DNA of 64,000 nucleotides, taken from contig JAJEKV010000057.1 in the NCBI GenBank assembly GCA_021234155.1, positions 3,503,821 through 3,567,820 on the forward strand, in the 5' to 3' direction. Position 1 is the first letter of the stretch; every line of letters starts with the position of its first letter. The DNA comes from Isoetes taiwanensis (taxonomy: Eukaryota; Streptophyta; Lycopodiopsida; Isoetales; Isoetaceae). Made by a program: the position numbers and the translations under genes. The notes beneath the pieces are model-generated. The model was not told where the DNA came from, searched no databases, and saw nothing but the letters and a program-made list of their open reading frames with translations. Below are positions 4,756 to 62,023 of this stretch, piece by piece.

Positions 4756-4781
4756 GGGTGAAAGCATGTTGTAGTGGAACA
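4756..4781 (+). repeat. left TIR of outer element
   Basis: 26 bp, a perfect inverted match to 41458-41483, beginning GGGTGAAAGC. The next 60 bp contain further TGTGGTG-like motifs also found just inside the right end. Confidence 0.9.
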
Positions 4782-16002: not shown

Positions 16003-16003
16003 C

Positions 16004-16020
16004 TGTCGCCGCTGCCGGGT
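16004..16020 (+). other. primer-binding site, tRNA-Asp-like
   Basis: TGTCGCCGCTGCCGGGT starts 1 base after the LTR. It resembles the tRNA-Asp-type PBS used by many plant Gypsy elements (TGGCGCCGTTGCCGGGG), with three differences. The tRNA assignment is from memory of that consensus. Confidence 0.6.
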
Positions 16021-16049
16021 CTGATTCGATTTTCCTTTCTTCTGTCGCC

Positions 16050-18694: not shown

Positions 18695-18833
18695 AATCAT
18701 TTCCGTTGACAATGCTGAACCCTCTCTCTCCGACACCGATTTTGAGGACGCCCAGAATATTTATCAAGTTCAGGCTCCACCTGCGAGTCTGCCTCTGTCA
18801 TCCTACCCCGAATATGCTGATCCTTGGGGAGAA

Positions 18834-19790
18834 ATGACTCTTGAACAGGACCAGGCTGTGGCTGCTTTGCTTGACCCTTACCTGGCTCCTTGCAATCGAA
18901 TCCAACGTGTTGATCACTTTTCAGACGCTGAACCTCCTGCAGCTCCGGTAGATGTACACGCTATCATGAAGCAACCACTGCTTGAGGAAACTCAAAACCT
19001 CTTTTTTCACCATGCGGTATACGCATCCTCTGTTATGCTTCAACCTCCTGCTCATATTGTCCAGGACCGCGGTTATCCCCATATTCAGACTCGACGTCGA
19101 GATTGTGGGCGTAGGCAACAATCACCGTCCGAATTGTCGCCAATCTTCCGACACCCTATCGTAATGGGGCCGTCACGCTTTTCAAAAGTTCAAACACATT
19201 TTAAGCCGGAGCTATAGAGATCTTGAGGGAATCAACAAAACCTTGGGGAACTCACCATTCCTACCAAGTTCGATGCACGCCAGTCCGGCAAAGAACGATG
19301 CACGGCTCAACCCCAATTACCGATGATCGCGTCAAGGCGAAATTGACAAACTCCTTCTTTGCGGGTTTGATCTATGAGGTCAAACATTACGAGTGGGTGA
19401 GCTCCATCGTCATTGCACTCAAACACAATGGTAAGATCCGGCGTTTATGTGGACTACCGAAAACTCAATCGTGCCCGCGGGCGTGATCATTTTCCACTTC
19501 CCTTCACGGACCGGGTTACGGAAGAGGTTCTTGGACATGAGATGTACTCTTTCATGGATGGTTTTTCCGCTACAATCGGATCTCAATCAAAGAATCGATC
19601 AACTCAAGACTACCTTCACCACCCCGTAGGGCACTTTTTGCCTACAAGGTGGTTCCTTTTGGATTATCAAACTCTCCATCCACGTTTCAACGTATCATGC
19701 TCTCGTTTTTCATGATTTTATGAAGGAAAATCCCTTCTTGCAAATTTTTCAAGATGACTTCTCGCCTCTGACGTTCCATGGCTGACCATT
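18834..19790 (+). pseudogene. reverse transcriptase remnant of nested Gypsy
   Basis: RT motifs survive only in pieces and in several frames: YVDYRKLNRARG followed by FPLPFTDRVTEEVLG (about 19440-19540), then SFMDGFSAT. A region near 19640-19760 translates in fragments as palm sequence with FQDDF in place of the catalytic Y/FVDD. Multiple frameshifts make RT non-functional, unlike the intact RNase H-integrase next to it. Confidence 0.75.
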
Positions 19791-19944
19791 TGGATAAATT
19801 GGAACTTCGTCTTTCGAAAAATGTGATGAGTCCGGCATTAGTCTCAATCCCAGAAATGCACCTTTTTCGTCACTTCGGTGTTCTGTTGGGACATGTGGTC
19901 AACAAAGCGGTATCACCACGGATCTGCGCCAAAATCAGGCAAGC

Positions 19945-21954
19945 GTGCTCAAGGCTCAAGCACCAGCCAATATCAAGGAAACACGCTCTTTCTTGGGTAA
20001 GGTCAATTATTACTCCACCTTCATTCCTGGACTAGCAGCCATTGCAGATCCCATTCATAAACTCACGGGTGATGAATCCACCTGGGCTTGGAATTCCCAG
20101 GCGGATGCTGCTTTCCAACAGTTGAAGCTATTGCTTACTCAGGCCCCGGTTCTTGTTCCTCCTCAATGGGACAAGCCCTTTCATGTCCATGTCGATGTCT
20201 CGGCCTTTGCTATTGGAGCTGTTCTTTCTCAAGAATACGATGCGCACACTGACAAACCAAACCGCTACGCCAGCCGGAAACTCAATTCTGCTGAACGCAA
20301 CTACTCTGCCACAGAGCGAGAAGCCTTGGGTTTAATTTTTTGCGTCCAACGCTTCCGTCACTATCTTTTGGGCAGTCAGATCAAATTCTTTGTTGACCAC
20401 CAGGCACTTCTTTATTTGATCAACAAATCTACGCCCACGGGCCGCATTGCTCGTTGGGTCCTCCTTCTGCAAGAATTTGCACCTTTTGAAATTGTTCACA
20501 AGGCCGGCAAATCTCATGTTGTCCCGGATTATCTTTCACGCATCCACACAGATGATCCCTCCACTGGGGTCTCAGACGCCTTTCCTGACGCTCAACTCTT
20601 TCTGGTCACGGCAACACCTCATTGGTTTCATGACTTTCAGCAGTATCTCCTCACAGGTGCTCTTCCACCAGAGGACGCCACGCTCTCTCCAGCCAAGCGA
20701 CAATCCCGTCGCCATCAATTTCTCCGCGAGGTCCGTGACTACACCATGGTTGCAGGCCATCTTTACAAAAAGGGTAAGGATACAATCCTTCGACGCTGTG
20801 TTCTCCCTCATGAGGTCCCAGATATTGTTCGAGAACCCCATGAAGGGCTCGGTGGTGGTCATTTTCATGGAGACACCACGGCACGCAAAATCCTTCTTGC
20901 TGGTTATTTTTGGCCCACGCTCTTCAAAGACGCTCACGCCCACGCCCGCACGTGTGATGCTTGCCAGCGTGTGGGATGGCCCACGGCCCGTGACACTCTT
21001 CCCTTGACGCCGGTTGCCACGCCACTTCCCTTCAGCAAATGGGGAATGGATTTTGTGGGACCCATCGATCCTCCTGCGCGGCACACCCGTGCCCGCTACA
21101 TTCTGGTTCTCACTGACTACGCTACCAAATGGGCGGAAGCTTGCGCACTTCCAGACAACACTGCGGCCAGCACAGCCAAAGTCATCTATCAACAAATCAT
21201 CACGCGATTCGGCTGCCCCACGGAGCTGGTCAGTGATCGTGGTGTCCATTTTATCAATCACACCATCAAGGAGCTGACGGATTATCTCCTGATACATCAT
21301 CACAAGAGCACACCTTACTATCCTCAAGGGAATGGTTTGGCTGAAAGCACCAACAAAACTCTGGTCACAATTCTCAAGAAAATTTGTGACGCTTCTCGCA
21401 CTGACTGGCAAAACAAGCTTCCTACTGTTCTTTGGGCTTACAATACTTGTTTCAAAATAGCTACAGGTCACACCCCTTTCAAATTGGTTTATGGACAAGA
21501 AGCTCTCATGCCGTTTGAATACATACTTCCAACACTCCGTTTTCAACTGGCTACTGCCCATAATCCGCCTGCTGCACTCAAAGAAAGGGTCTATCAATTG
21601 GAACAGTTGGATGAACTTCGAAGGGATGCTTATATTCGTGTTCTTCATGGACAACGGTTGCAAAAATCTCTACATGACAAACGTATGAAGACAAAAACAT
21701 TCAAAGAAGGAGATTTGGTTCTTCTTTATGACTCTCGGTACAAAAATTTTCCGGGTAAACTAAAGTTTCGATGGCTTGGCCCTTATCAAATTGCCCAAGT
21801 GGTTAAACCCAGCGTTTTCCAGCTGGCCGAATTAGATGGAACTCCATTACCTACACTGATTAATGGCTTTCGCCTCAAAACATTTCATACAACAGAAAGT
21901 GCACATCAACAAACAGATGCTGTTCCAGACACGAACACAACAGATAGTGACTAA
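19945..21954 (+). CDS. RT thumb, RNase H and integrase of nested Gypsy (intact frame)
   Basis: An open frame of 669 codons. It begins in the RT connection (ETRSFLGKVNYYSTFIPG). RNase H follows (HVHVDVSAFAIGAVL, ATEREALGLIF, FFVDHQALLYL). Integrase has CDACQRVG in the zinc-binding region and the catalytic residues in WGMDFVGP, LVSDRGVHF and PQGNGLAESTNK. The C-terminal GDLVLLYD and KLKFRWLGPY are the usual GPY/F-type module; no chromodomain follows. The first Met is not a biological start, as the protein would be released from a polyprotein. Confidence 0.9.
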   Translation: MLKAQAPANIKETRSFLGKVNYYSTFIPGLAAIADPIHKLTGDESTWAWNSQADAAFQQLKLLLTQAPVLVPPQWDKPFHVHVDVSAFAIGAVLSQEYDAHTDKPNRYASRKLNSAERNYSATEREALGLIFCVQRFRHYLLGSQIKFFVDHQALLYLINKSTPTGRIARWVLLLQEFAPFEIVHKAGKSHVVPDYLSRIHTDDPSTGVSDAFPDAQLFLVTATPHWFHDFQQYLLTGALPPEDATLSPAKRQSRRHQFLREVRDYTMVAGHLYKKGKDTILRRCVLPHEVPDIVREPHEGLGGGHFHGDTTARKILLAGYFWPTLFKDAHAHARTCDACQRVGWPTARDTLPLTPVATPLPFSKWGMDFVGPIDPPARHTRARYILVLTDYATKWAEACALPDNTAASTAKVIYQQIITRFGCPTELVSDRGVHFINHTIKELTDYLLIHHHKSTPYYPQGNGLAESTNKTLVTILKKICDASRTDWQNKLPTVLWAYNTCFKIATGHTPFKLVYGQEALMPFEYILPTLRFQLATAHNPPAALKERVYQLEQLDELRRDAYIRVLHGQRLQKSLHDKRMKTKTFKEGDLVLLYDSRYKNFPGKLKFRWLGPYQIAQVVKPSVFQLAELDGTPLPTLINGFRLKTFHTTESAHQQTDAVPDTNTTDSD

Positions 21955-22094
21955 ACCAGCGGCATATTTATATTATAGGTGGATTTTTTTTTACAAAATG
22001 TGGGCGCAGCCCAGCTATTTCCGCTATGGGCACTGCCCTATATACAAAAACGGGCTCAGAGCCCTATCTACTAAGTCCTAAGAAGAAAAACCCT

Positions 22095-22379
22095 CTACTC
22101 CGGGTTTGGAGCAGAAGTGATGCGCAGGATGTGGTAGAGGTTCTGCTCAGGATCCCAGCGAAGGTGCAGAACCACCTCCATCCCGTTGGTCTTCGGATCG
22201 GGATGTTCAGCCATCCCGGCACACCAACCGTCCATTCTCAGGCCACGATTGTGGCAGCGCCAGAGGTCCAGACAATTCATCTTGCAGGTAATCCACTCCT
22301 GACAGTTAGTGGGCATAGTGCAGTTCTCGTTCAAACCAGCAGCAGCCATGCTGAGCGCCATCGGATGCCTTCGTTTCAC
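22095..22379 (-). CDS. antisense Cys/Trp-rich small ORF with its own TATA box
   Basis: On the strand opposite to the Gypsy genes, a 94-codon frame with Met codons at positions 1, 7 and 11; the third or second is best placed relative to the TATA box. Six Cys are spaced through NCTMPTNCQEWITCKMNCLD and on to WCAGM, and three Trp occur in the same half. I do not recognise the family. TATATAAG lies at 22391-22398, about 30 bp upstream of the expected transcription start. Antisense genes between integrase and 3' LTR are known in Tat-type Gypsy elements, so this may be a resident accessory gene or a captured host gene. Confidence 0.45.
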   Translation of the reverse strand: MKRRHPMALSMAAAGLNENCTMPTNCQEWITCKMNCLDLWRCHNRGLRMDGWCAGMAEHPDPKTNGMEVVLHLRWDPEQNLYHILRITSAPNPE

Positions 22380-22390
22380 TCCCGGTTCGT

Positions 22391-22398
22391 CTTATATA
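22391..22398 (-). promoter_or_regulatory. TATA box for the antisense ORF
   Basis: GGCTATATAAGACG on the minus strand matches the plant TATA consensus, 30-42 bp upstream of the Met codons at 22361 and 22349. Confidence 0.5.
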
Positions 22399-22892
22399 GC
22401 CAACTGAGGAACTCCTTGTCGACATGGACCAATCACACAAATCGCCAACGTGTTTGCAATGCAAGGCTGTTTGTAAAATGAGACTCTTTTCTCCCGCCGC
22501 ATATTTAGCCATGGTACCTTCTGACACATTCCTTTTAATGATATCCCACTTCGAGTTGCCAGCATTAAATGCCATTTCTTCTTTTCACGCCCGTCGAACA
22601 TTAATGTGTGTCCTTTGCCCACCTGTCACATCCCATCATTCTCTCACGCCTCATCTCCACCGTTCATTCCTTCTCCATTTGTTGTTTGGGGACTTAGCCA
22701 AATTTTTGCCTCTCAATCGCCTCCTTGGCATCTTTCGACACCTGGCACCATCAACGGTTGCAGCTTCGCCCTTATCATACCCCTTCACCCACCTTTGCGC
22801 GCCCTAAACCTTTTCGTCTCTCTGCGCCTTCGTCTTTTGTTCTCTGCTCTCCGCCTTCTTCAAACAGTTCCTTCTATTCCGACGCTTTTCGC

Positions 22893-25495
22893 CATGGCTG
22901 CCCCCAAACTTTCTACACTTCAAGCTTCTGCTCCAAGGGATGCGACTCTTTTTGGGTCTGTGTCTTTCTCGACGCCCACCTTTCGAGAGGCCCTTGTTGG
23001 TCTGAGTCGGGAAGTTGCGGAACGCCACAAGCTTTACGAATTTTCACAAATGGAGCTCCCGGCCCCAAATCCGGCGCAATTGCAGCAGTTCATCGCACAC
23101 ATCGTCAACAGCCCGGAAGGACCATTTTACTTACTCAGCATTTGATTTCTGAGGTATTCCACATCCCTTTGCAAAAACCTTCTGTCTCTTGGGCTGCTTT
23201 ACAGGACATGGACGTCACTCAGTTTGGCGCTATTGCTTATCAAGCCAACCAACATCGCCTCACAAATATTGCCAAACCCCATGAGACTTTTGTGAAGTTT
23301 CTGTGGCGAAAATTGCTTGGGCATTCCATTAAGAACACCCACATCAATAAGCCGTTTTTATAATATGGTCATCAACGCCATTCACTCCACTCTGCATGTC
23401 GATTGGCCTCGGCTTTTTATTCTCTGAGTCTTCTTCAAAGTAGACGCGCGTTCGGCTACCCCCCTCCTCTGTCTCTGAAATTTCCGTGGGTGGCCATCTT
23501 CAGGCCCTCATTCGTCATTATCTTCCAGTTCTTGAGAGCCCTTCCACTTCCCATACCTCCACTCAGCGCTCTCTGCATTCCCAGCGTCAAACTCAACAAG
23601 CTGTACCTTCACGCCAAACTTCCCCTCGTCTGTTCAACATCCGACCCGCGCATGTCCTTTGTCTCCTCTTCTTCCTCGAGGCCACGCCTTCCAATTCCGT
23701 CATGCCTCTCAACAATCTCGGACAAAGGCAGACGGGGCCCTGCACCTCTCCATCCTCGGCGGCTCGTACAAATTCCAACAAGATGTTCAAGCGGCTGCCA
23801 TGCGGCTACATGCATCGAGGAGGCTCTCATGGCCGGTGTTCAGCGTCCACGGAGGCTTCGATCTTTGTTCAAAGAGACCTTCAAGCTGCCACGCCCCATG
23901 TTCAAACCACGGAAGCCCAACTTCAAGAAAAAGCACGCCTCTATTACGTGCCCGTATAGATCTCACCCGGTGCTTTCGGGATCGGACCCGCCTACTTACG
24001 GATCAAAGCGCAGCTCCAAACCGAAATTCAGGACTTATTGGAACAGAACAAGTCCAAAGATACCCTTCTGAGTGACAAGGAGAAACACATTGCTAAGCTA
24101 GACACCTTGTACTCAGAGCTTTGTGACAATTACAGCACTCAAGTTCAAAATCTCACTGAGCGTGAAGCTCGACTCATCTCCCTTGAAGCTCAGCTTTCCA
24201 CACTCACCAATCAGTTAACGTCCCTCCAGACTCAGCTTTTGGAGGCTCAGAAACAAAAGGTCATCGATGACGCGGAGATTGCCACGCTTCGCCTCCATAC
24301 TCTGGGGCAATCCTCTTCACATGCCACGCTTCCTGGTAAACGGGTCCGTGATCAGCCCCGTCTTTTGTTAGAAAAGGAGCATCGGATCCGTGACCTTGAA
24401 CATCAGCTCCAGCAAGCAGTTCAATCTGCTGAGGAAGCCCAAACCAAACAGGAGGGATATCTTGACATTGCCACCAACATCCCTGGGACTTCTCTACTCC
24501 TTCCAAACTATCTTGACTATGTGGTGGCCCGGCGGCATCTCTTTCTTTTTGAAATGGTACGCGGCCAATGGCAATGTTCATCAACAACCACTCAAAAGTA
24601 TGGACTTCCTTCGGATCCGGCGGATCTTTCTATAGAAGACAAGGGTTTATTTTGTGCACTCTTAGTCTTTGATCAGCTCACGGTTGAAGATCCCGAATTA
24701 GTCATCTTCCGAAGTTGTTCAAATTTTTCATGGCTTATGTTTTTCATGACTTCTACCCGGGCGGATCTCCGTGATAAATTCCCGATGAGGCCCATCGTGT
24801 TTTTTCGAGGCAACTCCAATGCTTTGGGTTGTTATCACCAACCAACAAATATTTCCGGGATCCCTTTCGGTCCGGACTTTTGAACAAGAGTACATGCCCG
24901 AATTGGCTCAAAGACTTACCTCTCGTGGCGGGTTGAAACGTTGGAACAGGTAAACAAAAATCCGGGCGCACCACGATGATCTTGAGTTTGCTTTCGATTT
25001 ATATGCAAGCACTTGGGAGGCTACAATCAACTCCGTGGCCTTCTGGAAAGCAAGACCATTCCCACGGGTTGGGTCAATCCTCCTGTCTATCAATTACTCT
25101 CTACTTCAGAATGGGACCATTGGTGTCGTGCTCTTGATCAAAATCTTGTTCAAGCATTCAGGGACATGGCTCACAAACCCACGCACTGGCATGATTCCCT
25201 CTCCATATGCTTCCTTAGGAGCCCCTCCCCCCCGGTTCCTTTCTTCTGATTGGCGTCTTCCCTTTTGGACGAAGGTCATGGATGGCCACGCTGGGTCGAC
25301 TCCGCCTCAGATCTCCACGGATCTCCGGTGGGATCCCCGATTTGTCAGACGCTCCAATTGGGAGGATAATGCCACTTTGGACACTACTGAAAATTGGATT
25401 TACATCGGTAATGAGCGTGGTTGGCAAAAGCCTGCTGATGCTCTTCATGGTCTTGACACCTTCTTGCAGAATGCCGCCACCTCACCAGATCCTTG
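22893..25495 (+). pseudogene. 3' accessory ORF of nested Gypsy, coiled-coil, frameshifted
   Basis: It lies in sense between integrase and 3' LTR, where Athila-like elements have an env-like or accessory ORF. It starts MAAPKLSTLQASAP at 22893 and continues in several frames. The longest segment (24038-24883) is a heptad-rich coiled coil (HIAKLDTLYSELCDNYSTQ, SLEAQLSTLTNQLTSLQTQL) followed by a globular part with YLDYVVARRHLF. I see no signal peptide or membrane segment, so I do not call it an envelope. At least four frameshifts are present. The coiled coil suggests self-association; function unknown. Confidence 0.6.
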
Positions 25496-25872
25496 ATCTG
25501 CCGCCAAAAGCGTGTTTTCGTGGCTCTCAAATGCATCCTGGTCAGCTCTTTAAATAGGCAGCGTCCAATCTTTCACTGCAATCCGAATGCCAGCGTCAGT
25601 GCCTTCGGTCTTCAAACTTGCCTTCTCATGGAGTGCCAGTTTGTTCCTTCGGCTGCCCATGCTGCCCTGGAAGACATGGTGCGCTCTCACTTCCTCATTG
25701 AGGCCCATCCTGCCCTAGGGCTCAACACCCCTGACGCTCTTCAAACACGCCAGGACCTCATTGCTCATTACCATAATGGCGCCCGACCTCATTCCCGTGA
25801 GGATCACTTTCCGACTGCTGGTTTCCCGCCTTCGGAAGCACTTCCTCCTTTTCTTCAGACTGAGTGTCATTT

Positions 25873-25884
25873 GGTGGGGGGGAG
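25873..25884 (+). other. polypurine tract of nested Gypsy
   Basis: GGTGGGGGGGAG directly precedes the TG of the 3' LTR. Confidence 0.85.
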
Positions 25885-26477
25885 TGTTAGTCCCAGGCCT
25901 CCCGGTTCGGGAATATTCATGCATCCTGACGGACCAGGTCAAGCTCAAGGATCCACAGCGGGCATGGGTCAGCCATCAAAGGCTCGCCAGAAGACCAAGC
26001 AATGCACCCACGCATCAAAGCTGCGTCCGCCCAACAAGAGGCGCCGCCAGACAAGTGATGACCCGTCACCACCCGTGTCAGGTCCAGTGATTCTAGGCAT
26101 TTCAAGAGGCACCGCCAACATTCCTCGCAAATCAGGCCTCCTTCCGTGAGTCGGCACCCCAGAGATCGGTCCGAGTGTCTATATTGGGCCAGAGGCCATT
26201 GTACTATATATGAGTAGAGCTAGCATATGATGGCTAGATGAGTTTTGAGTCTTGTCTCTTTTCAGTCTTCTCTCCATTGCGAGAGCTCATGTATGTTCAT
26301 CATTGATATCAAGGAAGCATATCATTTTCCTCTCATTGTTCTTTTCTGTTCCATTTTTTTCTTCTTGTTCTTTTCTTGCAAATCCCGCGTGACATAGTCC
26401 CCCGGATTCTCCTGTTAGATCCAAGGGTCCTCACAGAGGGCTGTCTTGCAGGAGTTCCCGAACCCAGACCCCAAACA
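25885..26477 (+). repeat. 3' LTR of nested Gypsy element
   Basis: 593 bp, same TG...CA termini as the 5' LTR and followed by the TSD TATAT at 26478-26482. Confidence 0.93.
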
Positions 26478-37825: not shown

Positions 37826-40800
37826 CTATTCTTCATCAGACATGCTATCTTCATCAGATAAAACCTCGGGCAAGTTTTCTAGAATATTTTCCTCATCCAC
37901 TTTGGTCTAGCCTCAGAACCTGCTCGAGCACCTTTCTTGATCTGCTACATGGAAACTCGAATAGCACAAATTTGACTAGAGAATACAAGTGACTTTGGCT
38001 CGTTTGTCAACAACTCATACATCACCTTTGACCGAGGCGTCTTTCTATAGTAAATGCCCTCCACAACGGTTTCACCTCTCATAAACAAGTTTCCGTTCTG
38101 CTTGAAGTCATTTTCAACTTCAAATTTTGGCTTGGTGCATAGCAACATCCAAAATACAGAATCCTCCTCATTCCCTTTAGGTGCAGCAACTGCAAAGTTG
38201 TCTCCTTCTCTAAGTGCTTCTGCAAGTACATTTGCCAAGGTTGAGTATAGTGGCCTGGTAGACTTGCGGGTCTCTTCCACATCCGCATGAACATTGGAGG
38301 ATGGTTCAACGACTACAAGGTTCCATTCATCTACATACAATTTGTTCTCACACATGTCCCATTTTCCATCCAAACAATTCTTTGCAAAAACATGATAGCT
38401 TTACGGTATGTAGGCGTGTTGGATTTCCTCTTTGAATCCATGGACTGAATGAATTTGCCTCGGTTTTACGGAATTGTCTCTCGCACCCCAAGCCTTTTTC
38501 CCCGTTGATATCCTCGTGTTTTATTTCCCGTAAGTATCTCCAAACTTTTCTTCCATTTTCACCACTCGGATGTACCACATTGAAATTGTTTCTCTGCAAT
38601 TTTCACCACATCATGGGCATTATCTAGTTTAATGTCGATGTTTAAGTCATGAACCTCGTATCCATCTTTTCAATTCTGCTTTGCCTTCCCATCATGTTCA
38701 CCTTTTCCATGGTTTGATCCAAAGAAGTTCCACATCATGTTGACCTCTCAGATCACAACCGTACCTTCCAACAAAATAAAATGATCCGTCGCTTTGAATT
38801 GTGATGCAAAGACCATCCGAAAAATACATAGTGCCGTTTGGGGACATTGCCTTTCTCGCTTTAAGTACTCAAAATGTTTCATAAAACAATGTTGAACAAA
38901 AAGTGTGTCATGTTCCCTATCATCCGGCACATAGTAGTGTGTTTCCTTCTCAATGGTGTCTGTCGTGGATCAACCTCGATAGGTTATTTGAACAAATATA
39001 GTTATCGGTTGTTGACCCAAATAAGCATGGACTGAACTTCATTCTCGCTCCTTAAAAGTATAATTCTCTGCGAAGTCAACCACGGATAGGTAAGCATCTC
39101 CGGCAAGTTATCAAGGAGTTCTTTTGTAATCCTGCCTTTGCCACTTATATCCTAAGTTGTGTAAAGGAAATTTTGGAAGCTTCTCTAACATTTTGTTCAC
39201 CAGTGGAAGACTTGCAGTTTCATTGTGTTGATGAACGAGCTTAGACTTCTTGCTGCCATCTCTGAATACAGTTTTTTCATAGTCTAGGTATTCCCACTTC
39301 ACCATGCCACTATCACTAGATTGTTCATGTGGGCAGATAGGGAACTTCTTAATCCCACACTCTTTACACTCACCCAGAATGCATTCCCTCTTATGGTAAG
39401 GTTGGAAGCTAGTTTTCTCACATAAGATTCCCCGCCACAGACTTCTTGTGCTACTTATTTTGTATTCAGACGCCCTGCATTCACCATATATGTCTGACCT
39501 GCAAAGCTGACAAGTGCAGCTGCAGCTTTTTGGGTGCTTAGTTCTCATACTATTGTCTGCATTCTAACATGGTATATACAGCAGCAATTATTGAAGTCCT
39601 TTAATTTTACAACAAACCATGGTTTCAGCTTTTCAAACATCCTCTGTTTGATCATAACACTAGGATGTTTCGTTTTGAATTTCCTGAACAATTGCAACTG
39701 CAAGGAAGATAACAAGGTGATCAGCATATTTATTGCACACTACATTTTCCACCACACTAGGCACCACATAACATATATTACAGACATTTATCTTACACCT
39801 CGTTATTCACCACACTAGGCACCACAAAGCATATAATACATAATTTATTGTACACCATATTTTTCACCACACTAGGCACCACATAGCATATATTACAGAC
39901 ATTCATCTTACACCTCGTTATTCACCACACTAGGCACCACAAAGCATATAATACATAATTTATTGCACACCATATTTTTCACCACACTAGGCACCACATA
40001 GCATATATTACATAATTTATTTTACACCATATTTTTCACCACACTAGGCATCACATAGAATATATTACAGCATTTATTTTACACCATGTTATTCACCACA
40101 CTAGGCACCACATAACATATATTACAACATTTATTTTACACCATGTTATTCACCACACTAGGTACCACAAAGCATATATTTAGAGCATTTATTTTTCACC
40201 ATATTTTTCACCACACTAGGCACCACATAGCATATATTACAAAGATGTATTTTACACCATGTTATTCACCACACTAGGCACCACAAAGCATATATTTACA
40301 AAGATTTATTTTACACCACGTGCCTCACCACACTAGGCAAAGACATATCATATATCACAAAGATTAATAGGCATCACACACCACGAGCAATCACTAACCA
40401 CACCAACCACATATCACAAGCAATCACTAACCACATACAACATACCACATTAACAATAAAAAATGTGGTGAAGATGAAGAAATGAAATAACCTGTGATTC
40501 TTCCAGATAGCGAGTGGCATGATCCTCTCTTACATTTCGTTCCAATCTTCTGAACTTAACATCCTTTGCATTTGGAGAGACCCTACTGTTTTCGGTCCAA
40601 AATTGCTGCACAAGTTCTATGACAGAATTGGGAATTGCATCTGCTCTTCTAACTCTATCTCTTCCCTCTTCAATTTTGCTTTGGTAAGATTCCTAGGATG
40701 AACACCCAGCAGTTTACCAAAACCCTGAGCACTGACAGGATTAGCACTTTCGGTATTAATGCTTCCTCTTACGGCTATAGCAAGGCAACTACTCTTGGCT

Positions 40801-41231
40801 GCTAAACTCTCATTGCTGTTAGAGTTCTTCACAAGTTGAATGGAAGCCCTGAGGTTGCTGACCACAATGCTCTTGGCTTGCAAATCTTTCAGCTCTTCAC
40901 CAAGTACGCTGTCCATTGTGTCATCTTCCAGAAAATCTCGTAAAACCTCTTTCTTATCACTGTCAGCCAAGCCTTTAGTGGTGCTATGAAATGAAGATAA
41001 TAATTTCAACACCATCCGATGCCTAGTAGAGGCCGTTCTGGTGGATCCTCCCTCTGCTGATGCAATTTTTGCTAATTCTTCTTTAGCTTCCCTTTTTCTT
41101 TTCCTTTGGCGTCTTTTATGATCCCGTTCTTGTTCTGGAGTTCTCTTTCTCTTACCTGTGCTCCGTTTTGAGATTTTAGGCAGATTTGCTTCCAAATTAA
41201 ATGATTCAAAGTATGAACCGGATTGATCCAC
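37826..41231 (-). pseudogene. T2: transposase of the outer element (DDE-like core with Cys-rich region)
   Basis: Minus strand, starting MDQSGSYFESF 250 bp inside the right TIR. Exon 1 (41231-40492) has a very basic tract (RDHKRRQRKRKREAKEE, probable NLS/DNA binding), then LAAKSSCLAIAVRG, HPRNLTKA and, after a 1-base shift near 40682, QQFWTENSRVSP. The intron 40491-39698 contains the TGTGGTG array. Later exons give a Cys-rich region (SCSCTCQLC, CKECGIKKFPICP), then in broken frames SVVDFAENYTFK (about 39060-39085), FSDGLCI, FFGSNHGKGEHDG and the C-terminus at 37826 (LENLPEVLSDEDSMSDEE). It is paralogous to T1 throughout. Four or more frameshifts; dead as it stands. Confidence 0.75.
39735..40470 (-). 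repeat. TGTGGTG array, right subterminal, inside T2 intron
   Basis: About ten units of roughly 57 bp on the plus strand, each with TTCACCACACTAGGCACCAC and a CATATATTACA spacer. This is the inverted form of the left array motif. It ends about 1 kb from the right TIR, mirroring the left array, and fills most of the intron between T2 exons 1 and 2. Confidence 0.9.
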
Positions 41232-41457
41232 AACCGTGTGCTTCAGGAAAGGCGCGGGTTAGGTGGAGATTGGAATGGGACGGGTGGCGTAGGAAATTGG
41301 AATGGGACGGGTGGCGTAGGAATCGGGTTGTTGCAGTTCAAGAAATGATTGAATCCGGGCAGTACATGCACTAGGCGCCAAATAAACATTTAAAATCGCA
41401 CCACAAATTTGATATCTCCCACCACATTTTTAGGGGAGACAGGGGGGACACCCAGGG

Positions 41458-41483
41458 TGTTCCACTACAACATGCTTTCACCC
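41458..41483 (-). repeat. right TIR of outer element
   Basis: Perfect inverted copy of 4756-4781, followed by CCCA (41484-41487), the probable 4-bp TSD. Confidence 0.9.
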
Positions 41484-42708
41484 CCCAATCGAGGTCGGCC
41501 ATGGCCAGCTGGGCAGTCTGTGTGACATAAGGGCAATTCTGCATGAAGTGCCCGGGCCGTATACACCTGTAACATGCTTTGTCTCTGGGTAGCTGTTCTC
41601 GGGCCTCTTTGGGAATAGACTGTAAGAGGTTCCGAACTTCCTTACCGACATTGTTCGGCTTGTCGGGCATGTTGAAGGTGACTTTCTTTTCCTGGCGGCC
41701 ATTAGAGTTCTGTTGAGAGGGCCCCGGACTCAGTGAACGGTCCTTGTAAGGTGTGTACGGGCGTGGCTGCGAGTAAGAGGCGGGGCGCTGGTACTGGTTT
41801 CGTGGTGCGTCCTCTTCAAGGCTCAATGCGTTAGCCTCAGCCTCAGCAACTGATTTCGGGTCTATGGCCTTAACCATTCGTTTAATTGATGGGGCCAACC
41901 CTTCAATATAGCCCTCTACCGCCCTCTTTTCATTCATTCCTGGCACATACAGCCTCAAGCGCATGAATTCATCAGTGTAGGCCTGAACTGACATACCCTT
42001 CTGCTCTAACCTGTAGAAAGTCTGAATCTGTTGGCATTTGTACGCACGGGGCACATAATGCGACTTAAAAGCTTTGGCAAACATTTTGAACTTGCACCTG
42101 CTTCTGTCCAGATGCTTGGCTCGAGCATAGCCCTTCCACCAAATACGAGCAGCTCCTGTAAGGTTTGTGGTGGCAACCTTTCCTGTATCCTTTTCTGTCA
42201 TGCCATAGGATTTTCCAAACTCCTTCATCTCGTCCAACCAGGACTCTGCATTCAGCCCGTCTCTAGATTTCCCATTAAACTGGGCCAATTTCCTATTTTT
42301 CCATATACTGGTTATGGCCGTGTCAACCGTCTTACGGTACTCTTTGTCCCGGCACTTTGCATGGTCACCAGATGATACAGACGACTCAGAGGACACAGAA
42401 GTGGCCGATTGTGAGGACGTGGCACTATCGTTAGAGGAACTCCGACGACGTTTGGGACGGTGCCTCCTTAGTGCGGGTACAGGGGCCGGTTCAGGTGCAG
42501 GTGGCTGCTGTGGTGGTGGACTTGGCGGTAACAGAGGTAACTCCGGCCCATCTTCCTGCGCATGCTGCGGTGGGTTGGCATTCAACACATAAGCTTGCAG
42601 CTCCACTAACTGCCGCTTGATCAACAGGAGTTCCTATTCAGGCATTAATCTGCTAGCACCTGAGGGTGTCTGCCACGAGGCGTTACGTGCACCGTCTATA
42701 TTGACCAT
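41484..42708 (-). pseudogene. gag: chromovirus gag
   Basis: Starts MVNIDGARNASWQ at 42708 and is read to the insertion edge. An in-frame TAG at 42634-42636 follows MPE. Then come a Pro-rich segment, a basic Ser-rich segment, the retrotransposon Gag domain (ESWLDEMKEFGKSYGM, AARIWWKGYA, YRLEQKGMSVQAYTDEFM) and a CX2CX4HX4C zinc knuckle, CYRCIRPGHFMQNC. The frame would lead directly into protease at 4755 without the TIR element. Gag forms the particle and binds RNA. Confidence 0.92.
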
Positions 42709-42987: not shown

Positions 42988-43476
42988 CTAGGGCTGCGCA
43001 AAAGGGTAGAGGATGGAATAGCGGACGCTTTCCCGTACGGCCCTTACTACCTTATAGCGAGCCCATGCCTGGATAATGACATGCTGGTAGTCCAAGGTGG
43101 GACTAATGATGAGGAGATTAAAAAGATCTCGTAGCGCAAAGAAAATTTGCCATAAATGATCATTAGCATCGGCATAAGCTTCATGCCTCTTCTTCTCCCA
43201 GTAATTCCAAGTTCGTCGAAGAGTTTGTTGCAGATGTTCGAAGGCACGTTCTCGGAGAATGTTGACTACTTCCAATCCTTTAGCTGGATCATAGGACTCA
43301 TCTTCCACAACAAGTTCCCCTTCTTCGGAGTCATCATCTCGATCTGGGTACTCACCATATCGTTGGCCGTAATCTTGGTCGGGAGGTCCTGGATCGTCCC
43401 TTCGTATGTCATTGGTGATTCTTTCCTCGATCTCTGCGAGATCGTAGTCTGCAAGATGGCAAGAATGAATATACAC
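42988..43476 (-). CDS. chromovirus extra ORF 3 (leader region), unknown
   Basis: Minus strand, 162 aa, 280 bp upstream of gag. An acidic N-terminal half (RDDDSEEGELVVEDESYDPA) is followed by an amphipathic helical half (FEHLQQTLRRTWNYWEKKRH, LWQIFFALRDLFNLLI). The first Met may not be the true start, as LADYDLAEIEERI could follow a splice. No known family seen. It is the third of three extra frames between PBS and gag, a region normally short in chromoviruses. Confidence 0.55.
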   Translation of the reverse strand: MYIHSCHLADYDLAEIEERITNDIRRDDPGPPDQDYGQRYGEYPDRDDDSEEGELVVEDESYDPAKGLEVVNILRERAFEHLQQTLRRTWNYWEKKRHEAYADANDHLWQIFFALRDLFNLLIISPTLDYQHVIIQAWARYKVVRAVRESVRYSILYPFAQP

Positions 43477-43661: not shown

Positions 43662-45092
43662 CTAAGAACTAGGGTTCTCCTCTTCGTCCATAGGCTGAGG
43701 AGGTGGTGGCGGCGGTCGATGACGTAACAAAGTCACCCCTGGGTCCACTGTGGCAGCTGCAATGGAGGCAACCTCTGGCGGATAGGCGGCAGCCAATGGG
43801 GCCGCCGTAAGAAGTTTCATACTCATCCATGGTGCAATATCCTGCCCCAATGCAGTGAGGGCAAGATCCCGTCGGATGAGTACGTAAGTAAGCGTGCGAT
43901 AGGGAAGCTTCTTATGCCCTGCCAATGTGGAAAGAGCACGGAGGTTCCACCACGAAGCCTCGGCCTCTGGCCCTAAGTCCTGGGCTACAAAAAGGACCTG
44001 CCCCTGCCGAAAAGCTGATAGGAAGAAGCGGGTAAGGTGATTCCCTAACGCCTCCCCCTGTGGCGACCTTCTTATCTAGGTCCATAGGGACCTCTTCTTC
44101 CTTGAGTTCCTCCTGTTCTTCGCTCAAATGAGCAGGGTTATGGTAAAGATCCTCTCCCTCCTCATCCGATCCGGAGGGAACTTCGACCATATTAATATTT
44201 GGGACATGAGGTCCCATAGCTGTAAAGGCATCCGGTGAAGGCTGAGATGGCGGATCCTGTAACACCAGTTTGCGAAGCCGTAACAAAGTTTCGGCCGGCT
44301 CTATGGTCTCATGATGAAATTGGAGTAGCTGCTGTACTTCCTGGGGAAGGTCAATAGGAGTAAAGTCAATGAAATCATCCATACAGTACTCTGCTAACTC
44401 ATAGAGTACATGGTCCTTGCGTCGGCGCTTAAACCCGGCCACCATGTGATAAGTCCAGATGATATCATCCAAGAGAAGATACTCTTGCCCTTGGTGATAC
44501 ACAACTAGAAGGGCGTCTAGTCCAGACAAGCGTGCAGCTTGTTCCCGACGTGGTGGCATCTCCTTTGCCAGCTGCTTCCAACGGACGAAGTCACCCATGC
44601 CTATGTGCTCATCCTCTTCCTCATCGGAAGGCTCGGAAAGTTTGCCTTTCTCTGCCGGCAATGTCTCATCCTCAACATACTGATCCATGAGGATGGCGAG
44701 TGCAAAGGCAACTTCGAGATATTGTCGCCCTGGTGCTGAACAACTGGCGGCTGTTTACCCGATCTAAGTTTGCCCTTGAGCACTTCATATGCGTGGGTGT
44801 CACCCCCAAGCATTTCTCGGACTACATCCCGTTCTAGGTACAACTGGAGAGGTTCCCCAAAAGGAATACACAGAGGGAGCATCTCCTCTGTGTAAAACTG
44901 TAGGAATCCGGCATAATCTGGGTGCCGCTGCATATTAGAGATGAGGTCAAGGCGTTGACGTAGAAAGGGCTGTAAAAGGTCAAAGGGCACCTGTGGATCC
45001 CAATGCTCTCCATCCTGGTACCATGCAAGTAGATCGGCGGCAGCCATGGGCGCTGGAAGAGAGGAGGGAGGAAGATAGACAGATATAGACAA
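43662..45092 (-). pseudogene. chromovirus extra ORF 2 (leader region), acidic, two frameshifts
   Basis: Minus strand. Start at MSISVYL (45092) or more likely MAAADLLAWYQDGEHWDP (45047). It reads through FYTEEMLPLCIPFGEPLQ, shifts near 44690 into VEDETLPAEKGKL, an acidic EPSDEEEDEH and GLDALLVVYHQGQEYLLLDD, and then a second acidic stretch GSDEEGEDLY and LSEEQEELKEEEVP. A second shift near 43920 leads to MAGHKKLPYRTLTYVLIRRD and a Pro-rich end. No known domain seen. Two long acidic tracts next to a histone-fold ORF are suggestive but prove nothing. Confidence 0.5.
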
Positions 45093-45248
45093 GTGAAAAT
45101 GAAATCTTAGAGATCCTTTTTAACCCTTTTTTTTAAAGTGATTTATTTATGCTGACGTCAGCATTTTCGTACATAATACAAGGACAAAAATGTAGATTTT
45201 TATTTAATATAAAAAAAATATTTACAACGCAGACATTCTCAAAACCCA

Positions 45249-46498
45249 CTAAGGACGCTCTCCCCGAATCCTGCGGGCCAGGGCCAAATCCTTTGGCATT
45301 ATAGTGACTCTCTTTGCGTGGATAGCGCAAAGATTTGCATCACCAAAAAGTGCCACCAAGTAGGCTTCTGCAGCCTCTTGAAGTGTAAAATGGCAAAAGT
45401 CTGGAAGCGGAGGTCGGTTTTGAACTCTTGGGCTATCTCCCGAACTAACCTTTGAAAAGGCAGCTTCCGTATCAGGAGTTGTGTGGTCTTCTGGAACTTA
45501 CGGATCTCCCGTAAGGCCACGGTGCCGGGTCTGAACCGGTGGGGCTTCCTTGGTGGAGCAGGGTTGGGAGGCGGGCCCCTTTGCCGTGGTATCGTCTTGC
45601 CCCCAACAACAGGACGGGGCCGGGAAGCATCCACCCGCTCCTGCCTCCGGCTGGAACTCACGTTCTTCCCAATAGCTCCGACAGTCTTCAACTTCTCCTT
45701 GTACTGGCTGCCAGACTTATGGGCTACGGCTTTCCTCCGGTGTTTAATGGGCGTCCTGTCCATCTGGTTTGGCCCCTTCTCAATCTCTGGTCCCCCATTA
45801 CCCTGCTAGTCCTGCTGCTCTTGTCGGGCCTTCTCCTCTTTTTCCCTTTGGATTCTTTCCTGCTCCTCCCGGAACTCTCGAGCTCTCCTGAGGTCGTCTT
45901 CAACCTCAGCGTACCGTCGTTCTACAATGCGGCGAAGGAGTTCAGCGTGGTATCGATTGGGTCGCTGGTTCATATCAATCTGGATCGTCGTCAAGTAATC
46001 CAGACTGATGTCAGGAATCTCTCCCCACGTGAAGCTCTGGGAGGCTTCATGCCACTCATATGGGGGAAGCTCGATTGCCCTGCCATCAATGACGGCGACT
46101 CCATCTCCTAAATATCTATATTCTCGACCTCGAGCCGCCGTATCGGCTCGTTCCACCTCCCTGCGGTCATCCTCCCTGGCCAAGTTCCGTATACGGTCGG
46201 CCTCTGTTCTTATGTCCTCCTCCTCAGTGTGTCCCTCACATTCAGGAGGGTAAAATTTGATCAACATCATGACCAAATCAGGTTGCTCGACTATGGTATA
46301 AGGAAGCTGTCGGAGATTCAACCTAACCAAAAACGATATCGGATAGGGTATCCTAGCGTCGTCAGCAAATCTGTTTACCAACTCATCCAGAAGTATGTCA
46401 ATCAAGGCAAGGTCAGTAGCCATGTGCTGCGCGATTAAGGCATAAATCTGGGCTATGGTGAGGGTAGCGGGGTCCACGGTACTCTTTTTGGTGGCCAT
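45249..46498 (-). pseudogene. chromovirus extra ORF 1 with C-terminal histone H3 fold
   Basis: Minus strand. The first 230 codons (MATKKSTVDPATL...) end in a charged R/E-rich coiled coil. A single in-frame TAG (45806-45808) separates them, with no frame change, from a histone H3-like protein that has its own Met at 45763 ([11 protein letters not shown]). Its N-tail of about 75 residues is not canonical but keeps GGKTIPRQ near where H3 has GGKAPRKQ. The core is nearly canonical: [20 protein letters not shown], then [20 protein letters not shown]. After a 1-base deletion near 45385 it reads [20 protein letters not shown], then [12 protein letters not shown] and RRIRGERP. The centromeric-type divergence of loop 1 and helix 2 is absent. 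With TAG read as CAG, this was a fusion protein of about 420 aa. Confidence 0.85.
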
Positions 46499-46816
46499 AA
46501 CTATGGCGCTGAGGTCTAAGGCGGCAGACAGTGAGGCGCTTGCGGTTAGGAAAACGATAGGGGAGGCGCTAGGGGTAGAAAAGGCGATAGAGAAAAGCCA
46601 AGGTGGAAAACAGGGTCGGGTCCGGCAGCTATGGCGGGCGTCAGACCTAGCGGGCGGAGGCGCTGTTAAACAAAAAAAAAGTTAACGGCCGCCTACCCTT
46701 TAAATTTTTAAAAGTTTTTTTTTTTTTTTTTTTTAAATATATTTATACGGCGGAAATACGCGCGATTATACGGTCGGGTGCCGACAGCATTATACGCGTT
46801 TCTACCGCGACTGTAA

Positions 46817-47024
46817 GTCGATAAAAAGCAAGTGGCGCCCGAGTTGACTTTCGGGGCCCCTCCTTGACTCCTTTCCGCCTGTTAATGACCCTCCTAGGGT
46901 ATCTGGGTATGCCCGATCCAGTCGATAAAAAGCAAGTGGCGCCCGAGTTGACTTTCGGGGCCCCTCCTTGACTCCTTTCCGCCTGTTAATGACCCTCCTA
47001 GGGTATCTGGGTATGCCCGATCCA
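46817..47024. repeat. exact 104-bp tandem duplication in the chromovirus leader
   Basis: Two copies, 46817-46920 and 46921-47024, both starting GTCGATAAAAAGCAAGTGGC and identical by eye, so recent. They lie between PBS and extra ORF 1. An 18-base T tract follows leftward at about 46716-46733. Confidence 0.95.
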
Positions 47025-47250: not shown

Positions 47251-47266
47251 TCACGGCTCGATACCA
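47251..47266 (-). other. primer-binding site of the chromovirus (tRNA-iMet type)
   Basis: On the minus strand TGGTATCGAGCCGTGA starts 3 bases after the LTR end. It resembles the initiator-Met PBS TGGTATCAGAGCC used by most plant chromoviruses. Confidence 0.85.
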
Positions 47267-47269: not shown

Positions 47270-48829
47270 TGTGGCGCTCCACGAACATATCGGCGGCTCG
47301 AACGTATACATACGGGGACTTTCCCCTCCCATGGCAACCAACTCGCCATGAGCAGGGCCCTCCGTCTAACTCGGGCCATCTATAGAGAGAGGGTCATTCG
47401 GCCCACGCCTTCAATGGGGCTCCTACGTCGCGGAAGTGTGAATACAAGGTTAGCACACAGCATAATCATATCATAAAATACCACCACGAAGGGTGGCACA
47501 TCCATCCAACTGACAACAACAAAGAAGATGCATTTGATACTAGGAAAAACACCCAAACCCCTGGTTCTACCCCGGCTCAGACTCCATGAGGATCGACTGA
47601 CGGCTAGGTCTCAAGAGGTCAGCAGACCGAATCTTGGCATGGCGCTGGCTGGCATAGAACATCGGCTAGGATTGTCCATTCCATCCGCCCCTCCTGTGCA
47701 CACTTTGCAGATGAGTCGAATCATGCTATGGCATCGCTATAGCCTTCCGGAGACGCAGACTCAAGGTATCACCCTTCAAGCCTACTCTAGGGTTCATGAC
47801 GCCCCGGTCCGATGAGGCAGGTCAGGGAAGTGTCCCCTTCCAGGATCACAGTGGTTCCATGGGTGAGCTAGAGAATACATGCCGCATCAGCGACCCCCGC
47901 ATCCATACACGACTTACTCACCCGAAATCTACTCAAAGTACAGGGTGCCCCATACGGGTCACACCTCTGCATCCAGGGAGTGCCAGACCCATACCCGGCC
48001 CTCTACGTGACCGGCTATCAGGCCTAGCCCACTGTAGGAGTCCCAGGAGCCGTGTATGTTCGTGCAAGACCCCACCCCCACTTCACCACTGCGTCCCTTC
48101 TCTGGTGCTAAGCCATTCCATAGCATCCACGACTCAATGGTCTCTTGTGCACAGGCCGCTACAATTGGAAATTAAAGGAGCTACTAGGAGCATACTAAAG
48201 CATCTGGCACAGAGGTCTCTACCCCCCCTCTAATCCCTGCTTTATGGATGTTTAACAGAGCTACTTTCATAGATTCATCCATCCATTCATAATAACCATA
48301 ATCCATAATTGAAATGTAAATCCTAAATATCAAAGAAGGGTTAATCCTAAGTAAGAACAACCAGAGAAGACTCAAAGAACTTAACTGAAGCGCTAGCCTT
48401 AAAGATATCAACTAGATTATCCAATAACCCGAGTTTCGACTTGATCCATTGTCATGAGGCGCCTCCATCTCTCAGTAATCTGGTGTTCAGCAACAACTGG
48501 GGTGTTCAACAACAGTTCCAGGTACTTGGGCGCTCAGCTGCTCCCCTTCCTGGCTCGATTTTGGGGTAAAATGGGGGTAGTGATCCACCTTGACGGCCCA
48601 AGTTAGCATTCCCATGCTGGCCAATCGAGTTTGGCCATGTGGCACCTTCCCAAGTAATCAATTAACTTGATTAAACTAATTAGATATTAATTCCTTAATT
48701 ATAGGTTATTATCCTTAATAATTAACTAAATTAATCCCTTTTAGGTCAACCCCCTAGGTTACAATACCCCATGGTGGCGTACCGTCAGTATATTTATACG
48801 TATATCGTATAAATACTTGGAACGTCACA
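47270..48829 (-). repeat. 5' LTR of the chromovirus (complete, 1,560 bp)
   Basis: On the minus strand TGTGACGTTCC...GAGCGCCACA. Its outer 590 bp match 1-615, with deletions of about 11 and 15 bp. No ORF inside is supported. Confidence 0.93.
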
Positions 48830-50426: not shown

Positions 50427-50860
50427 CTAAACAGGAATCCCTACATAAAAAAAAAAACCAAATAAATGTCAGAAAAGATGAAAAGCAAGAGAACATAACA
50501 TGAAACAACATAAGAAACAAAGTGGAAAAAAAAAACAAAGGAAACGAAGAACGCACCATCACATTTGTAGTTGGGAGGGATATACTTAGCAAAGCCACAG
50601 CGGCGAGGAACGGAGAGGGCATTACGGAGGTCGAAACGGATACCATTACTTTGAGCAGAGTTCATGGTTTGGCAGAGGCAGTTGGGGTAGCCATTGTAGG
50701 TGCGGATTGTGTTGCAACAGGCAGCGCCAGGATAGCCAGAATTGGTGTTCACAGCCTGAAGGCAGTTTGCAAGGTTGAGATAGTTGTTGCACTGAGGCAT
50801 CTGAGCTGAAGCAGCCACCACCAAAACACCCACTACCGCCCACATCAGCGCCATCCCCAT
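50427..50860 (-). CDS. non-specific lipid-transfer-type 8-Cys protein
   Basis: Minus strand, two exons: 50860-50557 (donor GTGCGT) and 50440-50427, about 105 aa ending CDGIPV. An N-terminal signal peptide (MGMALMWAVVGVLVVAASAQ) is followed by the eight-cysteine motif in canonical order: C (MPQC), C (LANC), CC (GAACC), CXC (NCLC), C (PRRC), C (NYKC). This is the fold of the plant LTP/2S albumin/amylase-inhibitor superfamily. Such proteins are secreted and bind lipids for cuticle or cell-wall functions. A TATA box (minus TATAAG at 50906-50911) lies 46 bp upstream of the start. It is an intact host gene, the first right of the nest. Confidence 0.85.
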
Positions 50861-60330: not shown

Positions 60331-60482
60331 TGTTTAACATTTGTTGGAGCGTGACACAATGTTCAACATTTGTTGGACACGTTCATACAAGAGATAAAAA
60401 TACAGTCAAACTTATGCACACAGCAACGAATAGAAATAACTGCCACTAGGTAAGCAGGAAACTGTATTGTTGAAACAGAACA

Positions 60483-62023
60483 ATGGAGGGAGGTAGCGAT
60501 GGCAGGCCCAAGCTTCACATACTTCTGATCTGTTTTCCTCTGCAGGGACATCTCAGTTCTATGCTCTACCTTGCTCGCAAGCTTCTGGCGTTGGACTTCT
60601 CAATCACCATAGCCAATGCTGAGCCGTCAAACCAGCGCCTTCTCCAATCATGGGGCGCTGTTGTTCATCTTCAAAATTTACCAGATCCTTTTGGTCCCCA
60701 ACCATCTCAACAAACGGTGAGCACTTTTATCAATTCCGATCAAGAAATCTTGCAGAAATCAGTGGGCGATTTGCTAAATGAGTTATGCGAGAGCAAGAAT
60801 AGGCCTTCTTGTATTATATTCGATCCATATATGCCATGGGTGCTGGATATGGCAAACAACTTAGGAATTCTTTCTGCGGGATTTTGGACATCCTCTGCAT
60901 TAACCTTGGCATTTCAACTAAACATTCCTCGTCTTATTGTTGAAGGATGCATTCCAGCCAAGAGCGACGGTAGGGTTCTTGCATTTTTCAAAATTGAGGG
61001 TAAAAGTTTAGGGCACATGCTTGTTCTTATCTGTAATATCTTTTGTGATGCAAAGTTATGATTTAGGGCAATCTTTTTGTTTTTGCAGATGCAACAGGGA
61101 AAGAGATTACATGGATACCAGGATTTCCTGCCTTGAAAGTTTCTGAATTTCCAACAGGATTACAAAATGGGGATCCAGAAGATCCACAATTCATATACAG
61201 ACTCAGAAGAACTCAACAAATACAAAAGGCAGACTGGATTCTATTTAACACTTTTGATGATTTAGAAATGGATTCACTATCTCAGTTTCCAACTTCTTTT
61301 GCAATTGGTCCTCTACTTCCAGCCACAGCATTTGGCACAATCGATGAACCCCAATTTGATGAAGTTCCAGCAGCATGGAGAGAAGACAAATCATGCATGA
61401 GATGGCTAGATACAAAGTCTCAAAATTCTGTTGTGTATGTGTCCTTTGGCACCATAGCCAGGCTTTCTGCAGAGCAAGTGCAAGAAGTTGCAGAGGCATT
61501 ACAGGCAAGTGGCTATCCATTTTTATGGGCTATTAGGCCGGATCTTATACAGGGTAATCTAGACAAATTTCTTGAGGATTTTATTATCAGAAACAGAGAA
61601 CAGGGAATGATTATTCCATGGGCTCCGCAGATAGATGTGCTTAAACACCCTTCAATAGGTGGGTTTTTGTCACATTGTGGTTGGAATTCAACTTTGGAAA
61701 GTATTTGTGGAGGAGTTCCTATCATTGGCTGGCCTCTTATGGCAGAACAGAACCTCAATTGCAAGTTTATTGTGGATGTGTGGCAGATTGGTATGAAAAT
61801 GCCAACCAAAGGTGATGAACTAGTGACAAGGGTTGAGATAGAGAAGATGATAGGGAAGGTGATGAAAGAAGAAATCATCCGCAAAAGGGTTAAGATGTTT
61901 GGGATTCAGGCACGAAAAGCAACTTCTGATTTAGGTTCTTCTTATCACAATTTGAACAGGTTCGCTGAGGATCTAAGAAGAATGTGTAGATCCATCAACA
62001 ATAAGTCCAAGTTGAAAGGTTGA
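60483..62023 (+). CDS. UDP-glycosyltransferase (family 1, plant type)
   Basis: Two exons (60483-60999, 61089-62023) join to 483 aa without a stop. The N-terminal acceptor domain has the start-proximal His of the PLQGHLSSMLYLARKL motif as presumed catalytic base. The C-terminal domain carries a full PSPG box with WAPQIDVLKHPSIGGFLSHC, GWNSTLESICGGVP, and WPLMAEQ ending in Gln, the residue usual for UDP-glucose users. Such enzymes glycosylate hormones, flavonoids or xenobiotics in the cytosol; the acceptor cannot be told from sequence. The single intron lies about one third in, a common plant UGT position. Length is normal and it looks functional. Confidence 0.93.

Follow-up and report, generated by a model that had tools for sequence, protein, structure and literature searches.

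A histone H3 core fused to a leader protein in a chromovirus family of Isoetes taiwanensis

Organisation of the element

The window is the whole stretch of DNA analysed here, 64,000 nucleotides of the Isoetes taiwanensis genome (assembly GCA_021234155.1, contig JAJEKV010000057.1, positions 3,503,821 to 3,567,820). It contains a chromovirus on the minus strand with a histone H3 core upstream of gag. The features of this copy, in the direction in which the element is read, are as follows:

47270-48829, minus strand: 5' LTR of the chromovirus (right-hand copy), about 1560 bp, with the ends TGTGACG.. and ..CCACA read from the sequence
47255-47266, minus strand: primer binding site of tRNA type, TGGTATCGAGCC, read from the sequence
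46816-47023, minus strand: exact 104-bp tandem duplication (sequence repeat) in the untranslated leader
45809-46498, minus strand: ORF1 leader frame of 230 codons, an N-terminal domain followed by a charged helix
45806-45808, minus strand: in-frame TAG after the ORF1 leader frame, a lesion in the window copy
45548-45805, minus strand: basic linker that replaces the H3 N-terminal tail
45249-45547, minus strand: histone H3 core and stop codon, with a 1-nt deletion near 45384-45385
43665-45092, minus strand: ORF2, in pieces in different frames (45092-44604, 44688-43915 and 43925-43665; frame list)
42991-43476, minus strand: ORF3 frame, immediately upstream of gag
41484-42624, minus strand: gag, with Ty3_capsid, Retrotrans_gag (Pfam) and a CCHC knuckle, cut at 41483/41484
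4756-41483, no strand assigned: 36.7-kb transposon between gag and pol, with 26-bp perfect terminal inverted repeats (4756-4781 and 41458-41483)
3055-4521, minus strand: pol, end of protease, reverse transcriptase and start of RNase H (Pfam)
1162-3051, minus strand: pol, RNase H, integrase and chromodomain (Pfam)
616-630, minus strand: polypurine tract abutting the 3' LTR, read from the sequence
1-615, minus strand: 3' LTR, cut by the left edge of the window and recognised by LTR comparison

The element was assigned to the chromoviruses on its LTR pair, tRNA primer site, polypurine tract, gag with a zinc knuckle, and a pol in which reverse transcriptase, RNase H and integrase follow one another in that order and end in a C-terminal chromodomain. 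The LTRs are 93.8% identical (48240-48829 against 1-615; 13 mismatches and two gaps amounting to 25 gap positions, 615 columns). Pfam recognised RVT_1 (2.9e-39), Integrase_H2C2 (1.3e-19) and Chromo (8.2e-08) in pol, with rve just under the cut-off (1.2e-07), and the CCHC knuckle of gag, which scores below the Pfam cut-off, was read by eye. The best match in a protein search with pol had 49% identity. In six of the seven sibling loci L003-L009 the primer binding site reads TGGTATCAGAGCC.

Three extra coding stretches (ORF1-H3, ORF2 and ORF3) lie between the untranslated leader and gag. No Pfam family matched the ORF2 pieces or ORF3. A relative of the first ORF2 piece adjoins H3 in all nine H3-bearing slices among L079-L098, and ORF3 has a counterpart in 27 of the 29 gag loci L050-L078.

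An earlier note on this DNA, made from the letters alone, had placed the H3 frame between the primer site and gag of a chromovirus. This setting was found, with LTR, primer site and gag to one side and pol with its chromodomain, polypurine tract and LTR to the other, and with the addition that the 36.7-kb transposon splits gag from pol; sibling gag alignments end at the transposon junction (41483-41486) in 25 of 29 cases. The chromovirus copy in the window is dead, because the insertion cuts off pol.

The H3 segment in the window copy

All four parts first described in the earlier note (leader frame, TAG, non-canonical tail and H3 core) are present at 45249-46498, on the minus strand. That the core forms one frame did not hold, as the deletion at about 45384-45385 splits it into two parts in different frames, KPHRFRPG...LRFQ (45547-45401) and LQEAAEAY...RRIRGERP (45383-45252). 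The two parts separately matched the Pfam family Histone at 3.1e-17 and 4.1e-17, and chance resemblance was rejected on the match of the first part to H3 chains of the PDB (phmmer, E=3.1e-27). The window core agrees with plant H3 at 84 of 98 readable residues, whether of H3.1 type or of H3.3 type.

Across 33 element rows the core is a collinear H3 histone fold with no insertions in 99 ungapped columns, copies with indels having been left out of this alignment beforehand. CENH3 is presumably marked by a lengthened loop 1 and a divergent core; this identity was rejected, as the element core is collinear with canonical H3 and has no loop insertion. The canonical N-terminal tail of H3 (ARTKQTARKS..) is absent from the rows read of all five kinds of element H3 described below.

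The spacer that follows the H3 stop (45093-45248) is AT-rich and contains AATAAA, a TGACGTCA palindrome and a short A-run on the coding strand, with a polypyrimidine-AG directly before the next ATG, all observed by eye. The spacer could be what is left of a poly(A) tract, or it could provide a splice acceptor for subgenomic mRNAs.

Sibling copies in the genome

The genome to which the window belongs (1.66 Gb; 1,658,258,908 bases in 1110 contigs) was searched at the DNA level with positions 45249-46498, and 40 of 1557 first-look candidates were scored. Full-length matches over the 1250 bases number 35; another is short of the first base alone, and four more are incomplete at one end. The leader-H3 junction is covered in all 40, a count for which the query itself selects. 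In copies picked by similarity to the H3 segment the mere presence of H3 proves nothing, and it is the coding signal that does. Measured against one open copy, the frame is undamaged in the leader of 17, the tail of 26 and the core of 26 of the 40, and throughout in 5, with some lesion in 35 of the 40 aligned kind-A copies. The TAG position holds a stop in one further copy (L013) and none in the other 38. In five of the 40 an uninterrupted frame runs from the leader methionine to the end of H3, so the TAG and the 1-nt deletion are local decay of the window copy. The fusion protein of kind A has about 420 residues in all.

A gag search of the same genome gave 40 scored matches from 2730 candidates, of which 29 were judged by slices, flanks and coordinates. 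H3 is present in 19 of them, namely the window, eight copies with H3 2.4-2.8 kb upstream, and 10 of 20 sampled others that were picked for their absence from the list of H3-segment DNA matches. In six more the slice that was read contains no H3 (a relative of the leader frame occurs in one of them and an ORF2 piece in two), and four, at C919:19988947, C923:1522465, C935:523594 and C1033:8083498, have a shortened leader and lack H3. Siblings without the segment, which the earlier note had named as evidence against a captured gene, are thus found in 4 of the 29 judged gag copies, against 19 that have it, and H3 is therefore not present throughout the family.

Several gag copies that are 91-95% identical to that of the window carry an H3 with just 71-74% DNA identity, and in L079 and L098 the gag matches that of the window but the H3 has no blastn DNA match at all. 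Because near-identical gags carry divergent H3s, subfamilies have probably swapped leader modules. The gag of L079 (G000:C1103:2538704-2539728), 95% identical to that of the window, adjoins an H3 of kind C.

Selection on the leader, tail and core

Over all pairs of the 40 copies (Nei-Gojobori), dN/dS is 0.150 for the leader, 0.343 for the tail, i.e. the basic linker, and 0.147 for the core; purifying selection, with values below 1 across copies, had been proposed as a check in the earlier note. When the frame is shifted by one or two bases dN/dS rises to 0.95-2.11, the exception being 25 far pairs of the core at offset 2 (0.71). Pairwise differences in the core average 0.0504, 0.0295 and 0.1657 at codon positions 1, 2 and 3. 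Methylation decay was rejected as the source of this third-position signal, as the excess persists without CG and CHG transitions: transitions outside these contexts amount to 0.0132, 0.0063 and 0.0915 in the core, and in the leader to 0.1085 at the third position against 0.0220 and 0.0127 at the first and second. The leader signal at the third position rests on transitions, because transversions alone show scant excess there (0.0488 against 0.0404 and 0.0380). One copy with a broken core (L048) was left out of the codon-position counts and the comparison of kinds, and kept in the dN/dS values and the lesion count. Taken together, the sequences indicate selective constraint on the codons of all three parts, the leader, the tail and the core.

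For the window copy itself, a neutral simulation rarely gave core replacements as mild as those observed (fraction 0.015), and a permutation test placed the replacements at positions that are variable in other H3s (0.011); next to dN/dS both tests are weak.

A lone processed H3 pseudogene was rejected on the dN/dS of 0.147 over 40 copies and of 0.018-0.089 within kinds. No word of at least 9 bases is shared between 44950-45260 and 45540-46760, where a flanking target duplication was sought, and so the single processed insertion that the earlier note had offered as an alternative is contradicted on both counts. The copies thereby show, at the level of sequence, that the H3 segment is a gene of the chromovirus family and not a pseudogene of one copy.

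Kinds of element H3 and their origin

In an H3 protein search of the genome the best 150 of 9305 candidates were scored, 15 at 96-98% identity (host-like) and 135 at 60-86%; for 47 of those 135 the surrounding frame runs for 400 codons or more without a stop. Sequences were read for six of the host-like matches and for 18 of the others. The six host genes are ordinary H3, with canonical tails, E77 and L90. The element H3s fall into five kinds, with 40 rows in A (window included), 4 in A2, 9 in B, 10 in C and 1 in D, which gives 64 cores after three with indels (L084, L087 and L092) were dropped. A107 occupies all 64 cores, against T107 in all six host genes (T107A), and is carried by all 18 sequences read from the non-host-like matches. 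L124 is present in 60 of the 64, and kind C keeps H87. The linker can be aligned in A, A2, B and C, and weakly in D.

The earlier note had called for a tree of H3 including the host genes. In a tree of 48 rows the element cores form one clade (33 cores, support 97/97) apart from 15 host and other H3s; it used 33 of the 64 cores (9 of the 40 of kind A and all other kinds), had no CENH3 row, and its bootstrap, like that of an earlier tree, had not fully settled. The earlier tree, which the 48-row tree supersedes because two outgroup rows were mis-registered, gave the element clade 90/90. It also showed B and C as supported clades (100/98 and 99/97), A2 within or beside A, D as a single row, and the element clade next to host rows, the nearest being H3.3-like (85/73).

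Within kinds omega is 0.018-0.089, and it is 0.029 between A and A2 and 0.025 among host H3s. Judged by these values, constraint on element H3 ranges from about equal to that on host H3 to some 3.6 times weaker. All other between-kind comparisons, and all those with the host, have synonymous differences of 0.77-0.94, which is saturated, with pN/pS of 0.11-0.17.

At least one copy of each of the five kinds lies upstream of a gag. In kinds A and B and the single C copy tested this gag is 91-95% identical to that of the window in DNA, in the single A2 copy tested the downstream gag is 97% identical over 151 residues, and in D it is 43-46% identical in protein. The pattern fits one capture from the host lineage that predates the split of those gags. 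Given selection, saturated divergence, gag linkage and a single clade, the H3 gene was most likely captured once and long ago and retained as an element gene. The suggestion of the earlier note that the element captured an H3 and fused it to its own leader ORF gains support from the five open copies, the constraint and the single clade. Overall, it is well supported by the sequences that an H3 core of the host lineage was captured, fused behind the leader and kept by purifying selection while synonymous divergence between most kinds became saturated.

The tails of older kind-A copies (L035, L043 and L111) contain ARKS, which resembles the surroundings of H3 K9 and K27. In its place the window subfamily reads AHKS (45710-45763).

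Conserved and replaced residues of the core

H39, R49, K56, F84, D106, C110, T118 and L126 are kept in all 64 cores, H113 and K115 in 63 of 63, and D123 in 62 of 64. Apart from H39, we take these to be contacts within the H3-H3' bundle, with H4 or with DNA, the DNA contacts being R49, K56, F84, K115 and T118. Replacements common to most copies are found at 86, 87, 89, 102, 105, 107, 124 and 125, and six of these sites (86, 89, 102, 105, 107 and 124) each set 60 or more copies apart from the six host genes. These six replacements may change or weaken the choice of partner. Those shared by nearly all copies are concentrated in helix 2, at 86-89 and 102-107, close to the patch by which H3.1 and H3.3 differ and which presumably has a chaperone role. 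Because the core contacts are kept and the canonical tail has been lost, the nucleosome-forming part appears to be preserved, and in place of the mark-bearing part there is a basic linker under constraint, attached to the leader domain.

The leader protein

The ORF1 leader matched no Pfam family, and none of 6349 candidates from 5.8 billion proteins reached E <= 0.001. An alignment of its domain in 18 rows, among them three relatives at 31-38% identity, leaves 17 columns invariant. Scans of plasmid and viral sequences gave no relative and one weak H3-like contig (L001), and among the at least 120 matches listed in a protein-database search with H3 most were tandem H3 proteins. Single-sequence folding gave a poor model (pLDDT 47.5).

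Possible roles of ORF1-H3

The best overall explanation, which we consider to have an even chance of being right, is that ORF1-H3 is a chromatin anchor that enters nucleosomes. The protein would fold as H3 and pair with host H4, and its conserved core would bring it into nucleosomes or (H3-H4)2-like complexes. The replaced N-terminus, consisting of the basic linker, charged helix and leader domain, would then point outward, so that element protein would be anchored on chromatin. Such an anchor would most likely hold or direct element nucleic acid or the integration complex, at the same place where the integrase's own chromodomain would act. This cargo is a guess, because the leader domain resembles nothing known.

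A broader reading, to which we give slightly less than an even chance, is that of a dedicated retroelement histone. ORF1-H3 and host H4 would form nucleosomes on element or target DNA, both marking this chromatin and displaying element protein, and would provide a self-written address for escape from silencing and for integration.

It is also conceivable, though unlikely, that the histone acts against silencing, since a tail without lysines 4, 9, 14 and 27 would allow no H3K9 or H3K27 methylation on element nucleosomes. None of the rows read from the five kinds has the canonical tail, and their core is conserved. However, the linker is constrained (dN/dS 0.343), whereas loss of lysines alone needs no constraint; a leader of about 300 residues would not be needed, and the older kind-A copies hold the K9/K27-like ARKS.

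Somewhat less likely again is a packaging role, in which ORF1-H3 and host H4 would coat the reverse-transcribed DNA in the particle or the pre-integration complex. The retention of R49, K56, F84, K115 and T118, presumably DNA contacts, and the position of the gene upstream of gag would suit such a role, but the Pfam scan of element frames found no other core histone, and host H4 would have to get into the particle.

That the protein occupies histone chaperones or H4 and so disturbs host chromatin assembly during transposition is improbable: it would account for the near-universal replacements at 86-89 and 102-107, near the H3.1/H3.3 patch whose chaperone role we assume, but leaves the conservation of DNA-contact residues and of the leader frame unexplained. 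A neutral passenger, i.e. a processed H3 caught and amplified with the element as in the transduplication by fungal hAT elements, is contradicted and very improbable, as the broken window copy, the lesions in 35 of 40 copies and the 4 of 29 judged gag copies without H3 are outweighed by a dN/dS of 0.02-0.15 that rises to about 1 or above when the frame is shifted, by the saturation of synonymous sites between most kinds, and by fused frames without damage.

With the nucleosome-entering anchor as the preferred reading, the sequences suggest that the elements use a histone which they encode themselves to build or tag chromatin. Few host genes are guarded as closely as those of the core histones. 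A retroelement H3 that has exchanged its tail and bears a protein at its N-terminus would be a natural experiment on the role of the tail in transposon silencing and on the entry of histones into chromatin, and retroelements would join the known carriers of viral histones.

Comparison with known systems

No report of a retroelement-encoded histone was found in the open-access literature, a scope outside which most subscription papers and preprints lie. Fungal hAT transposons have captured and amplified an H3 coding sequence, the copies of which are inactivated by RIP in one fungus, with 23 of 26 apparently functional in another (PMC6710886). That case is transduplication by a DNA transposon, with no fusion described in the part of the paper available (PMC6710886). 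Here an LTR element carries an H3 that is fused, divergent and selected. Maize Bs1, as far as the accessible sections of a review describe it, is a plant LTR element that transduced pieces of host genes into a hybrid gene; these come from an ATPase, a xylan endohydrolase and a glucanase, with no histone among them, and the word 'histone' is absent from the text of that review (PMC13317346).

Marseillevirus, Medusavirus and bracovirus resemble the present case in having viral genomes with their own core histone, but they are DNA viruses, unlike the chromovirus described here. The text of a review of such histones does not contain the terms retrotransposon, retroelement or retrovirus (PMC9145170).

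Plant LTR retrotransposons can retain additional ORFs in many of their copies, on either side of gag-pol, and according to the portion of the source at hand these ORFs are commonest between pol and the 3' LTR, unlike the H3 upstream of gag; 'histone' is absent from that text (PMC7264820). The orchid element Gypsy_Pa_2799 has an ORF for a 2-ODD (m6A demethylase), which by the available extract is an RNA demethylase domain and not a histone, and the term 'purifying selection' does not occur in the text (PMC9289625).

Other features of the window

The 36.7-kb transposon (4756-41483) has a frame of NLI/FCP1-type phosphatase at 12097-12927 (Pfam NIF, 5.1e-12) and a Ulp1/C48-like frame at 13224-13724 that is below threshold (0.0027). 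Two of its frames, 15131-15619 and 40617-41258, have no Pfam match and share an HPRNL-type motif, seen by eye; they are possibly the transposon's own conserved protein. A tandem array with a unit of about 57 bp lies within it at 39670-40368. It also holds a nested LTR retrotransposon on the plus strand (15411-26477), with LTRs at 15411-16002 and 25885-26477 that are 93.8% identical, and RNase H and integrase at 19798-21954. Two plant-type genes are also present in the window, one for a lipid transfer protein at 50441-50860 (LTP_2, 2e-12) and one for a UDP-glycosyltransferase at 60474-62023 (UDPGT, 3.3e-26 in the second frame).
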